A program made the position numbers and the translations under genes. Positions 29,933 to 35,694 of a stretch of 64,000 nucleotides of DNA are shown in pieces. The stretch is from the NCBI GenBank assembly GCA_017640505.1, contig JAEPQO010000001.1, forward strand, positions 1,380,625 to 1,444,624, written 5' to 3'. Below the pieces are notes generated by a model. That model did not search any database, had not been told where the DNA came from, and saw only the letters and a list, made by a program, of their open reading frames with translations. Position 1 is the stretch's first letter, and every line of letters starts with the position of its first letter. The DNA comes from Rhodospirillales bacterium. GTDB taxonomy: Bacteria > Pseudomonadota > Alphaproteobacteria > Rhodospirillales > Casp-alpha2.

Positions 29933-30061
29933 GATATTCGTTGCTCCCTTGGTCCCAGATTAGCGGGGCGGTGGTTTGCGTGCCAGTGCGCAGCGGGATA
30001 CACCTCTGGATAATGTTTTTTGAGGCGGATAGGATCGGACCACACAACCGAAGGCTTTCAC

Positions 30062-30526
30062 GTGACCACCATTCTCGAACGATTTACCGACCAAACTAGG
30101 CGCATTTTCGCGCGCCATCGAGGCCGCCAGTTTCTTGAGGGGGCAATGGCGGCGTCGGCGCTTGTTGCGCTTGCCGATGGGGACGCTTCGCTCGAGGAAG
30201 GTGCCGAGGTCGGCCGGCTGATGCGTGTTCTGGATATCCTGCGTGATCATAACCCGGAAGAAGGGGTCGAGAGTTACCTGCGCTATGTGGACCGGATCCG
30301 CAAATCGCCGTCCGAACTCGATGCCGTGCGCGACAAGGTGCGGGCAGCGGCGGGAAATGACCGCGAAGCGTCTGCCCTGTTGATCGTGATCTGCCATGCA
30401 GTCAGCGAAGCGGATGGTATCGTTCGTGAAAGCGAGGTCGCGGAAATCGCGCGCCTTGCGGCGCTGCTGGATATAACTACCAAGGATGCGGTCGCCCTGA
30501 TCGCGCCACAACAAACCAAAGTATAA
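30062..30526 (+). CDS. TerB-like (tellurite resistance fold) protein
   Basis: 154 residues from a GTG at 30062 with AAGG seven bases upstream; the frame extends to 30020 without sense. The helical TerB/DjlA-like domain is recognisable (LVALADGDASLEEGAEVGRLMRVLD, ICHAVSEADGIVRESEVAEIARLAALLDI), with acidic patches that may bind metal. The role is unknown; TerB folds occur in stress and membrane-associated complexes. It lies 17 bases before the CoA-transferase gene, so the two may be co-transcribed. Confidence 0.75.
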   Translation: MTTILERFTDQTRRIFARHRGRQFLEGAMAASALVALADGDASLEEGAEVGRLMRVLDILRDHNPEEGVESYLRYVDRIRKSPSELDAVRDKVRAAAGNDREASALLIVICHAVSEADGIVRESEVAEIARLAALLDITTKDAVALIAPQQTKV

Positions 30527-32176: not shown

Positions 32177-32302
32177 CGGACCTCAGCGCCGGAACTTCCG
32201 GTCCGGGCTTTCCAAGCCAATGCAATGGAATCGGCGAGGGTCCTTTGTTCTGCCGATCAATGCGGGTATTCTCTATCGCGACGCACGGAAAGCGGTAGGC
32301 GG

Positions 32303-33901
32303 ATGACGGCGACGATCGAAAACCTCAATCTGGAGGAAGGTAAAAGCGAGGTGCTTCGCGCCGTGCTTGCCGGCATCATGGAATCCAGTGCGTCGGACGG
32401 TGGCCCTCGTTACTCGGAGCGAGTCTGCCGGGCACTGGCAAGAATCATCGTGTGCCGTAGCTATGCCAAGCCGATGTTGGAACTATCGCATCTGCTGGCC
32501 ATCGCGTCGGCACGGGATGGTCGATACGAGGAAGTTTTTTGGGGGGTGGACCGTGCCAGCACCGGCGAGTTCCGCCGGGCGTTCAAGTTGTTCCAAGGCA
32601 TTCGGCCCGATGTGCGGGTATCATCGAACGGTGTGCGGCGCGGGCACGGGGCGGACGTGTTCGAAATCTCGTATCGCCGGATGCCATTGCTGGCGGCGTT
32701 GCTCGAGTTCATGATTATGACCGTCGGCTATCCCGCGGTTGAGACAATGACAGCGGGTTTGCGGCAAGGTGAGCTAGCCGACGAGAACGTTCTGGAAGCC
32801 GCACGCGCCATGCAGCGCAGTCTCTACGGGTATCTCAAGGATCATCTACCGCCGGTGCAACGCCAGCGTCGGGAACATCATTTTCTGGGTTACGCGGATG
32901 CACATGCCGGGAACAGATCTGGTGCGGATGTGATTAATGACGACGTTGTCATGGCGTATTGGCGATCATACGCGGCCAGCGAGGATGTCGACGCGAAAAC
33001 GTTTCGGAGCGTCTACGACACGGCACGTCGCCTCGTTGTCGCGCTGGATGCGGCGGCAGACCGGTTTGCAGGCGCTTACGCGCGTTCCATCGGAACGGAC
33101 CTGGAAGCGGGAGAGGTCGACCCGGCGGACGTCGACGCTGTTGTCGCGGCGATCGACGCGGACACGGGGCCGCTGGACCAGGTTCTTGAAACGTGTGGCG
33201 ATACGGTAAAATTCATCAATGTCGGCGAAGCGGATGTCTTGAATGAATTGCCGTTGGGAGACAGTACCGCAAGGCGATTGCCGGTCTCGGTGCTGCGGAA
33301 TGCGGTTTTCGGGGCAGTGCAGCTGCGGATCAGCACGGCGTTGCGTCGCGGTGTTGCGCCCGTGATCGAGATCCCTGATCCGGCGAAAGGATACTATACA
33401 GAGAAGCTGACCGCGTATGCGGCCATAGTGGCCGGTACGGAACGGTTGGCGATGGCGGCGCTCTGGTCGTTGTTCGAGGCCGGTCGCGCGGAAGCGGTTG
33501 ATCTCGCGCTGGCACTCGCGCCGGATCTCGATTGGGGGCAGTTAGCGCGAAGTGCCGCGGAGGACGCAGATAACGTGGTGTCGCTAGACCGCGCCGGGGC
33601 GCTTAGACAATTTTTTGCCGTCGTGCCAGATGCGCGCGGTGACGAGCTTGCGGCACTGCTGGCCGACGCACGCCGAACGTGGCGAGGTGTCAATCGCGCG
33701 GGGTTTCGGGATGGTGACGGCGAACAGGCAGTTGATGTTATTGCAGAGGCAACGCCATGGGTTCTCCGACTTATTTCATCCGTGCGTCGGACGCTCGATC
33801 GGGATCTCGGGCAGATCGACTGGTCGGGGCACGAGCATGCGGACGCCACCAGCTTTGCCGAAATGTTCGGAAACCTGTATGACCAAGGCAGAAAGCGATG
33901 A
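32303..33901 (+). CDS. Hypothetical helical protein, first gene of a three-gene cassette
   Basis: 532 residues from the ATG at 32303 (MTATIENLNLEEGKSEVL); an ATG at 32225 would add 26 residues with no clear homology. No family recognised. The protein looks almost entirely helical and soluble, with one hydrophobic stretch (MPLLAALLEFMIMTVG, about 130-145) and the segment VKFINVGEADVLNELPLGDS in the middle. The next gene starts 3 bases after its stop, so it is tightly coupled to the two genes that follow. Confidence 0.7.
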   Translation: MTATIENLNLEEGKSEVLRAVLAGIMESSASDGGPRYSERVCRALARIIVCRSYAKPMLELSHLLAIASARDGRYEEVFWGVDRASTGEFRRAFKLFQGIRPDVRVSSNGVRRGHGADVFEISYRRMPLLAALLEFMIMTVGYPAVETMTAGLRQGELADENVLEAARAMQRSLYGYLKDHLPPVQRQRREHHFLGYADAHAGNRSGADVINDDVVMAYWRSYAASEDVDAKTFRSVYDTARRLVVALDAAADRFAGAYARSIGTDLEAGEVDPADVDAVVAAIDADTGPLDQVLETCGDTVKFINVGEADVLNELPLGDSTARRLPVSVLRNAVFGAVQLRISTALRRGVAPVIEIPDPAKGYYTEKLTAYAAIVAGTERLAMAALWSLFEAGRAEAVDLALALAPDLDWGQLARSAAEDADNVVSLDRAGALRQFFAVVPDARGDELAALLADARRTWRGVNRAGFRDGDGEQAVDVIAEATPWVLRLISSVRRTLDRDLGQIDWSGHEHADATSFAEMFGNLYDQGRKR

Positions 33902-33904
33902 TCG

Positions 33905-34435
33905 ATGGCAGCCAATGACCCGGTCCGGAATCTGGCACTCGCCGCGCTCGATGCGGATGAGATGCTGCGTGATCTGCTCGTGCCTGGGGCGGATGTGCGC
34001 CTCTCGTTCTCGGAGTTGTACCGATACGTGAATGATCCGGCGTTTGAGTTGTCACCCGCGGCCCAGGATAAACTCTCGGCCGACCCGGCGGCGGCAGCGG
34101 ACCTTGAACGCCTGATAGCAGCCCGGCCTTTTGCCTACATGCCCCGTCAAGCGGCTGCGTCGACATCGGGCGCCGTGCGCCGGGAAGTCGAGAGGGCCGT
34201 GCTGACCCTGACCCCGTCACGGGCGACGCCGGCACAAGTCTATCTCGGTGTTGAGATCGTCGATCTGGAAAATGCAGATGTGCCGACGCACCTCTTTGTC
34301 CGTTCGCCCTCGGGGGCATGGCTGCGGCAGGCATTGCCTGCATTCAGCGGCAACCGTGCACAAGTCCTGCTGGAGGCGAACAGTGCGATTGCGAACGCGC
34401 TCAGCACCCCGGAGTCCGAGGTTTATCTTCGTTGA
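33905..34435 (+). CDS. Hypothetical protein, second gene of the cassette
   Basis: 176 residues, not recognised. The first half is helical and contains LSFSELYRYVNDPAFELSPAAQDKLSADP; the second half (about 105-176) looks beta-rich (QVYLGVEIVDLENADVPTHLFVRSPSGAWLRQALPAF). No signal peptide or membrane segment. The stop TGA overlaps the TTG start of the next gene (34432-34435), so the three proteins are probably made in fixed proportion. Confidence 0.7.
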   Translation: MAANDPVRNLALAALDADEMLRDLLVPGADVRLSFSELYRYVNDPAFELSPAAQDKLSADPAAAADLERLIAARPFAYMPRQAAASTSGAVRREVERAVLTLTPSRATPAQVYLGVEIVDLENADVPTHLFVRSPSGAWLRQALPAFSGNRAQVLLEANSAIANALSTPESEVYLR

Positions 34436-35694
34436 GCCAGGTTGCCGTTCACATACTGACCACCGAGGGCCCGGTCGCTATTCAGCGTATAACCGAGGAA
34501 GATCCGGGTGTCAGTTCCGTGATCTGTCTCGATGGGCTTGCACAGGTGTTGCCTGCGAGCCCGGCGTACGACGCTTTCGTGCGCAGGCCAATCGGCGTGA
34601 TCGAACGAACTACCGGTCACGGTGCCTACCGAATGGACGTTTCCGCCCGGATAGACGAAGGGCGCTCGTGGCAGCTGGCAGCCTATATCGCGCATATCGC
34701 ACAGCAACAGGAAACAAGCGAAGAGGTCACCGTTTTTGCGACGGGTGAGGTCGACAGCGAATTGAAAGTCCGCCCGGTCGAACGCGTGTCACTGAAACTG
34801 GAGGCACTCGCGCGTCAATTGGATGCCTTGGGGTTCAATACCGAGAAAGCAATCATTCTCGTTCCGGAGAATGAGCGTGACGCGCCGTCACAAATCGGTG
34901 GTGTGCCCGTAAGAAGGGTGTCGACAGCTTCCGAAGCCTTGGCGCTGGCAGGTTTGGCGGCGCCCACATCCATGAAAGTCCCTTCCGGCAATATCCCGGA
35001 ACGTGAATCAGGGCGGCGCGTACCGTCGTGGGCGATCCTGGCGGGTGTGGTTCTCGTCGCTGCGGCGTTTTTCTGGATTGGCGGTGACTTCGCGCGCTGG
35101 TCTTCTCTGGCGGAACAGGGGCGCATTCTTGACCTCGAGCAAGATATGGCCGCGGTTGAGGATACGTTTCTTGGGGGCTGGCGTGCGGCAACGTACCGGA
35201 AGTGGCGAAACGTCACCAAGCCAAGGATCGGTCGACTGGATATCGACGGCTCGACCCTCCTTGCCGAAGATGCGGCCGCATGCGCCGACAAGACAGCCCT
35301 CGAAAAGCGGCGGATGACCCAGGTCTATACGGGAACGGCCGTTGTGTGCTCGGTTGAGATCCGTGCGGTTTCGGATGTTAGAGGTCGGGTCGTGATCGGC
35401 AGGCTTGCATACTGGCCGAATGGTCTCGGCAATGAAGATCGGGCCACCCGGGTGATGCGCGGCAGCCATGAGAATTCGGGACGGACCTGGACTCTTGAGT
35501 TTGCGCAGTTGCCGGAGGCAGGTGCAGCGTTGCGACTGGTCATCATATCCGGTGCGGTTGATATAAACGGTTCGCAGCCCTGGTATCAGGATCTGCTGTC
35601 GGCGCACATCAACAGCGCCGCATTTGCTGCGGCGCGCGATCGTTTGCAGCGGCTCGGTTTCGACACGCACGCACTTGATTGGCGGCGCAAGTGA
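34432..35694 (+). CDS. Membrane-anchored protein with a degenerate Lon (S16) protease-like domain
   Basis: 420 residues from the TTG at 34432, which overlaps the previous stop and has GAGG ten bases upstream. Residues about 1-175 align by eye with the Lon proteolytic domain: EGRSWQLAAYIAHIA (Ser79 at the Lon catalytic Ser), ATGEVDSELKVRPVERVSLK, IILVPENERD and VPVRRVSTASEALALAG. The usual catalytic Lys position holds Ser120, with Lys122 two residues on. A single membrane helix (about 199-216) follows, then about 200 residues that would lie in the periplasm if the Lon-like part is cytosolic, with two cysteines. No AAA ATPase domain is present. The function is unknown. Confidence 0.72.
   Translation: MSQVAVHILTTEGPVAIQRITEEDPGVSSVICLDGLAQVLPASPAYDAFVRRPIGVIERTTGHGAYRMDVSARIDEGRSWQLAAYIAHIAQQQETSEEVTVFATGEVDSELKVRPVERVSLKLEALARQLDALGFNTEKAIILVPENERDAPSQIGGVPVRRVSTASEALALAGLAAPTSMKVPSGNIPERESGRRVPSWAILAGVVLVAAAFFWIGGDFARWSSLAEQGRILDLEQDMAAVEDTFLGGWRAATYRKWRNVTKPRIGRLDIDGSTLLAEDAAACADKTALEKRRMTQVYTGTAVVCSVEIRAVSDVRGRVVIGRLAYWPNGLGNEDRATRVMRGSHENSGRTWTLEFAQLPEAGAALRLVIISGAVDINGSQPWYQDLLSAHINSAAFAAARDRLQRLGFDTHALDWRRK

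Follow-up and report, generated by a model that had tools for sequence, protein, structure and literature searches.

Within the window (the whole stretch of 64,000 nucleotides that was analysed) three consecutive genes on the forward strand, referred to below as A, B and C, encode two proteins of no recognizable family and a membrane protein with a Lon-like domain (Table 1). A and B are separated by three bases, a spacing like that of a tight operon, and the start of C overlaps the end of B by 4 bases. A preliminary description of this DNA had delimited the reading frame of C as we find it (420 residues from a TTG start in our reading); it was silent on the two co-conserved genes upstream and on the wider envelope locus described below. 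As to the surroundings, a TerB-domain protein (window 30020-30526; Pfam TerB, 7.8e-8) is kept upstream of A-B-C in four of the six same-genus loci that were read (in this comparison L024 is a short contig and L032 a locus of another type; L and G numbers designate our loci and genomes). Downstream of C, between 35726 and 41348, Pfam identifies an SDR gene; the genes read there by eye encode a cyclopropane-fatty-acid synthase, a DUF1365-like protein, an FAD oxidoreductase and an ECF sigma factor, followed by one further gene, a set that we take to resemble the RpoE-ChrR singlet-oxygen cluster.

Table 1. Genes A, B and C and the features of their products, in positions of the window.
Feature	Position	Strand	Remarks
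Gene A	32303..33901	+	532 aa if the start is at 32303 (ORF opens at 32225); mostly helical; homologues in 27/29 relative loci
Gene B	33905..34435	+	176 aa; candidate substrate; homologues between A and C in 25/29 relative loci
B A83-S86 (AAAS), candidate cleavage site	34151..34162	+	A84 and A85 invariant in 22/22 aligned sequences
Gene C	34432..35694	+	420 aa, TTG start; membrane protein with Lon-like domain
C Lon-type proteolytic domain, residues 1-175	34432..34956	+	AlphaFold model, Foldseek, hhalign to Lon
C Ser79 (GRSWQL), predicted nucleophile	34666..34668	+	invariant 28/28; aligned to the GPSAG serine of Lon and to CalpL residue 152
C Lys122, predicted general base	34795..34797	+	invariant 28/28; aligned to the second K of GGLKEK
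C membrane helix, residues 200-218	35029..35085	+	hydropathy 2.15 over 19 residues
C C-terminal domain, probably periplasmic (topology inferred)	35086..35691	+	variable among relatives

Relatives of C were recovered from 13 of 61 related genomes by a single-protein search. Among 398 genomes of the phylum a profile search matched 17, a number that becomes 14 after removal of three partial matches (G098, G222 and G443; positions 99-180 only, in frames of 577-678 aa); in a further scan a match in G056 that covered positions 101-180 only was dropped as well. Thirty-two neighbourhoods were read, 29 of which hold C, the other three being the dropped partial matches. The cassette A-B-C is complete, in the same order and orientation, in 25 of these 29 loci; in L022 and L063 A and C were seen without B (none was found beside C in the divergent member L063), and in L026 and L033, where C lies at or close to the beginning of the contig, C was the only one of the three seen. 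In the 398-genome sample A was found in 13 of the 14 genomes that have C, and a weak relative of A adjoins C in the fourteenth (G129); a match outside the C genomes (G432; 75 positions, E 2.1e-4) was dropped from this count. The distribution is patchy even within a genus, in that G005 and G006 (the latter 93% complete) belong to the same genus and gave no C. Four genomes (G007, G033, G052 and G066) carry two C genes each, and three cassettes are broken, through decay or assembly error: in L024 (635-1953) C is split between two frames, in L027 (1860-3362) it has one in-frame stop, and in L022 (10040-11877) both A and C are truncated. Among the papers listed in searches of the licensed PMC literature none looked like an account of the A-B-C cassette, and the terms 'Lon protease', 'Lon-like' and 'Lon domain' are all absent from a survey of conflict systems (PMC7159879).

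Searches of Pfam, NCBIfam, PADLOC and PHROGs returned nothing above cut-off for either A or B, and B has no match in the PDB either. The model of A is mostly helical (pLDDT 84.6) and yielded no Foldseek match below 0.2, and a profile search of the PDB with A gave nothing below 0.75; a match of A to Pfam 3HCDH is weak (0.029, below cut-off). Over the 205 columns of an alignment of 22 B sequences the only fully invariant positions are A84, A85 and Q153, and the Ala-Ala motif is also present, by eye and apparently at the same place, in four more divergent B proteins (26/26 overall). It sits in an Ala/Ser-rich stretch ahead of the more conserved second half of the protein, and it is a candidate cleavage or docking motif, which could also be structural. 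There is a weak parallel in the Ser-Lys protease VP4 of birnaviruses, where, at the one internal site printed in a review, the residue before the cut is also Ala (PMC13067793).

Beside the cassette we encountered a second set of genes. A coil protein of ~305 aa is encoded near A-B-C in 13 of the 29 loci, and the envelope locus to which it belongs comprises up to 13 genes. In its fullest form (L029 and L034) the order is LpoB-like - S161 - SLT transglycosylase - A - B - C - TPR-like lipoprotein - coil - ~143 aa - ~175-aa multipass - ~186 aa - Pro-rich TonB-like - LpoB-like, where the SLT assignment is firm, those to CsgG/LpoB and TPR are weak, the remaining proteins have no family name, and the labels 'TonB-like' and 'lipoprotein' were given by eye. 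The gene sets vary among the 13 coil loci, L059 and L063 having the fewest and L027 lying at a contig end. SLT and/or LpoB-like genes, with the coil absent from the stretch read, are found in L028, L032, L060, L061 and L065, and LpoB-like genes follow C in L062, L064 and L066. The last three (family f27) have a divergent A-B-C and share many other neighbours. The two loci of G052 differ from each other, L029 having the full module and L028 being without it.

The coil protein was found in eight of the 398 and in eight of the 61 genomes, which amount to 15 distinct genomes that all (15/15) have C as well, although its profile was built from 14 copies that all come from C-bearing genomes, so that very divergent copies elsewhere could be missed; a marginal match in G185 (E 9.7e-4, in a frame of 1399 aa) was dropped. 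The hypergeometric probabilities of this co-occurrence are 2e-13 and 4e-7 when genomes are treated as independent, which they are not. In the window's own genome the cassette and the coil gene are 1.4 Mb apart: A-B-C is located at C4:1.41 Mb, whereas the module (SLT, S161, TPR-like, coil, 143, multipass, 186 and TonB-like) occupies C4:1.3-6.1 kb. The coil was found only together with C, yet no coil was found in G001 and G003 (99% complete), although both carry A-B-C; the module thus seems to depend on A-B-C and not the reverse. The tree of the Lon domains has many weak forks; on it the 'module' label takes six changes, and in 14 of 500 shuffles the number was as low. For the ~175-aa multipass protein the name of an ExbB/MotA channel was considered and dropped, the tests being mixed to negative: one of 12 members matched a MotA/ExbB-type family of Pfam, weakly (0.37), hhalign against 12 MotA/ExbB domains of five genomes gave 0.016 at a probability of 2.9, the profile search of the PDB returned no MotA/ExbB entry, and in PADLOC the protein of L034 matched ZorA at 4.6e-4. 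As a whole the locus looks like an undescribed cell-envelope apparatus.

The preliminary description had aligned the first ~175 residues of C by eye with the proteolytic domain of Lon, and both structural and profile comparisons bear this out. An AlphaFold model of residues 1-175, computed from 14 sequences, has a pLDDT of 84 (below 50 for residues 28-41) and a pTM of 0.83. Searched against the PDB with Foldseek it yields RadA as the best match (9.4e-6), with LonBA at 1.1e-5 and the Lon of E. coli at 1.8e-5 close behind. Each of the best 50 of 302 matches (E <= 10) is a Lon or a RadA, and their TM-scores for the query are ~0.4-0.6. At the level of profiles, hhalign aligned the 28-member C alignment with 12 Lon domains at E 1.9e-6 (probability 89.7), covering both the serine and the lysine block, where two unrelated control alignments gave E 0.56 and 0.62; the Lon set consisted of the window genome's own Lon and 11 of 12 domains fetched from nine related genomes (one partial copy was left out). 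A smaller alignment of 14 members (A1) gave E 4.4e-6 against Lon, aligned only from residue 95 on. The family libraries register the relationship faintly. NCBIfam spore_lon_C matches weakly (0.058) over residues 73-172, which include the serine block, and the PADLOC models SAVED_LON_TM (0.0019) and CRISPR-Lon (0.0086) match over residues ~76-126, within the Lon part only. The 14-member profile finds AfLonB (0.045) and CalpL (0.095) weakly among PDB sequences, where the Lon alignments begin after the serine and cover the K122 part only; in the comparison with CalpL the serine block of C is aligned as well. Pfam Lon_C (PF05362) matches neither the window's C nor any of the 14 members. Considering model and profiles together, the Lon fold of C is well supported, and the relation is beyond chance.

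In EcLonA (Ser679/Lys722), BsLonBA (Ser445/Lys488) and AfLonB (Ser509/Lys552) the serine and the lysine of the catalytic dyad are 43 positions apart (PMC9569914). In the Lon of the window's genome the GPSAG serine plus 43 is likewise the second K of GGLKEK, a position that is K in 12 of 12 Lon domains, whereas the first is K in ten and R in two. The hhalign alignment places S79 of C on the GPSAG serine, in agreement with the preliminary description, and K122 on this second K, and the spacing between them is 43 residues in the window's C (43 to 77 across the 28 members). Since K122 thus coincides with the catalytic lysine of Lon at the Lon spacing, it is not displaced; the earlier reading, which took S120 to stand where the lysine was expected, had mistaken the first K of GGLKEK for the catalytic one. 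The S120 column in fact holds ten different residues among the 28 members, and most Lon domains carry a non-catalytic K there. Residues 152 (S) and 193 (K) of CalpL, counted from the alignment, fall on S79 and K122, and presumably these are its catalytic S152/K193. By alignment, then, the Ser-Lys dyad of C sits at canonical Lon positions.

Both residues are kept throughout. S79 and K122 are invariant in a set of 15 sequences and in the 28-member alignment (the window is counted in both), which consists of the window and 27 of the 29 relative loci, with identities to the window down to 20%, and in which only T10, Y46, S79, W80, G105 and K122 never vary. Two broken copies were left out of it, L022 (start lost) and L027 (internal stop), and both still show the serine and the lysine. 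Of the two outcomes that the preliminary description had named as refuting it, a lack of any significant S16 match and freely varying Ser79 and Lys122, neither came about, the match to Lon being significant for fold and for profile-profile comparison. The invariance of S79 and K122, set against the freely varying S120, makes C most likely an active, ATP-independent Ser/Lys protease, an assignment read from the sequences that we hold with considerable confidence. We know of no member of the C family with established protease activity.

The remainder of C agrees with what had been described for it. Hydropathy predicts a single membrane helix after the Lon domain, and an AAA module is missing: the Walker A motif is absent from A, B and C by sequence scan, and the window's C matches no Pfam family up to E 10, hence neither AAA, PDZ nor SAVED. 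SAVED is also absent in the sense that the SAVED_LON_TM match does not extend beyond the Lon part. In the relatives the Lon domain is likewise followed by a helix and then by varied domains, among which DUF4384 in L034 and L029; for seven of the ten relatives' C proteins scanned there was no Pfam match above cut-off. The C protein of L057 (8097-12976) has the order Lon, Ser/Thr kinase (3.7e-35), helix (681-699 of the frame) and TonB_C (2.5e-18). TonB_C acts in the periplasm, and as the kinase of L057 lies between Lon and the helix, the Lon domain of C should be cytoplasmic, which we consider probable as a matter of inferred topology. The product of the next gene in L057 seems by eye to have an FHA domain at its end, so that this lineage may use phospho-signalling.

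The explanation that we favour, and regard as reasonably probable, is that C is a motor-less Lon-type signalling protease with an outer sensor that works with A and B. It starts from the fold of the model, the canonical dyad and its strict conservation, the three-gene cassette and the association with the envelope locus. C would be an ATP-independent, S16-like Ser-Lys protease whose single helix tethers the Lon domain to the inner face of the membrane, while the C-terminal domain, on the other side, would sense the condition of the envelope or of partners in it; A and B, with which it would work, are both probably cytosolic. By analogy with CalpL, a signal may alter the assembly state of C, upon which the Lon domain would cut a partner in a limited way and at a specific site, most likely B at the Ala-Ala motif, and thereby release or inactivate B and/or A. 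Without an unfoldase motor C should clip rather than degrade. That B is the substrate is a tentative proposal, to which we would give somewhat less than an even chance. More tentative still is a joint reading in which A-B-C acts from the cytoplasm as the control unit of a trans-envelope machine not described before, built from the transglycosylase, the LpoB/CsgG-like and TPR-like lipoproteins, the Pro-rich TonB-like protein and the small multipass membrane protein, such that C senses the machine outside and cuts B at Ala-Ala inside.

C might also be an active protease with a substrate other than B, acting in self-processing, in general clipping of unfolded proteins or on a component of the envelope module. 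The degradation of unfolded proteins by LonC, which is motor-less too (PMC3391209), the constant company of C wherever the module's coil protein is found, and L063, which has C and the coil and in which no B was found, all speak for such a role; the linkage of A, B and C in 25 of 29 loci, however, suggests a dedicated partner for C, and we consider another substrate unlikely. Less probable again is that the Lon fold of C is catalytically dead and serves in oligomerisation or binding, as in RadA, a dead fold used for binding being an option that the preliminary description had left beside proteolysis. RadA, which is not known to be a protease, has the same fold and is the best Foldseek match among the 50 of 302 listed, Pfam Lon_C does not match, and activity of C is a prediction; however, the loss of dyad residues that marks an inactive fold of the RadA type was not seen in any of the 28 diverse members, where S79 and K122 make up two of the six invariant residues, whereas a RadA-like protein of 475 aa from the same genome (named and read by eye) has Ala and Arg at the dyad positions. 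The retention of the dyad in C against its loss in this protein argues for selection on catalysis, though it is no proof of activity, so that the dead fold is unsupported, if less firmly so than the displaced lysine.

An anti-phage defence system of the CalpL type we consider improbable. It is suggested by the two PADLOC models that match C, SAVED_LON_TM and CRISPR-Lon, which touch the Lon part alone, and by one module protein, that of L034, which weakly matches ZorA (4.6e-4). Against this stand the same upstream neighbours, a CoA transferase and a thioesterase, in five of the six same-genus loci read, the lack of any match of the window's C in 50,697 phage records, a single weak and partial match among 72,556 plasmid records searched with the L034 version of C, the lack of PADLOC matches for A and B, both those of the window and those of L034, and the fact that the genomic link of the cassette is with envelope genes. 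Finally, the shifted-dyad protease of the preliminary description, with a lysine moved two residues from the Lon position, rested on its by-eye alignment with the first K of GGLKEK and is already contradicted by K122 lying on the true catalytic lysine at the spacing of 43, by the second K in 12/12 Lon domains and by AfLonB, whose GGVTQK lacks a K at the first position altogether, so that we give it next to no credence.

The catalytic kind of C is already known; it is A and B that match nothing above cut-off in the libraries searched. To our knowledge few motor-less Lon proteases act as switches, namely CalpL and YlbL, and C would add a third architecture, with Lon inside, a helix and a sensor outside. 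If the favoured signalling role is correct, a motor-less Lon protease serves as a transmembrane signalling switch, which in one lineage is fused to a Ser/Thr kinase. C comes with a partner pair, a site that can be named as a candidate for cleavage and an envelope locus that co-occurs with it, whose genes number about a dozen and for the most part match no family; the cassette would thereby lead directly into an envelope system that is as yet uncharacterised in the window's phylum.

Among known Lon systems, LonA, LonB and LonBA carry an AAA+ ATPase module in the same chain, which C lacks by Walker A and Pfam. LonC (MtaLonC, TTC1975) resembles C, as predicted here, in being an ATP-independent Lon protease with a Ser-Lys dyad and no working motor. 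It differs by two LonC insertions and by an AAA-like domain that is possibly present and non-functional (PMC3391209); it is also larger (732 aa in the PDB chains). YlbL is a transmembrane protein with Lon and PDZ domains, no AAA+ and the dyad S234/K279, and purified without its helix it had no activity (PMC6051672). Proteins of this PDZ-Lon type thus share with C a single membrane helix and a Lon domain without AAA+, but have the helix at the N-terminus and a PDZ domain, whereas C has the Lon domain first (cytoplasmic by inference), the helix after it and no PDZ match. CalpL (CRISPR-Lon), the Lon-SAVED protease of type III CRISPR, is likewise encoded with partner genes; it oligomerises on a signal and cuts the product of one of them, the anti-sigma factor CalpT (PMC11417357, PMC12751052). 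Its motor-less Lon domain lies in the N-terminal part of the protein, as in C, and the two agree around the serine (GKSYQLAV in CalpL, GRSWQLAA in C) and, for many relatives of C, around the lysine (HLEEK in CalpL, H-x-x-EK in those relatives, RVSLK in the window's C). CalpL has a SAVED domain where C has a membrane helix and an ectodomain, A and B match no family found, and among the annotated neighbours of C, judged by annotation only, no CRISPR link was met. In design, CalpL is nevertheless the nearest characterised relative of C.
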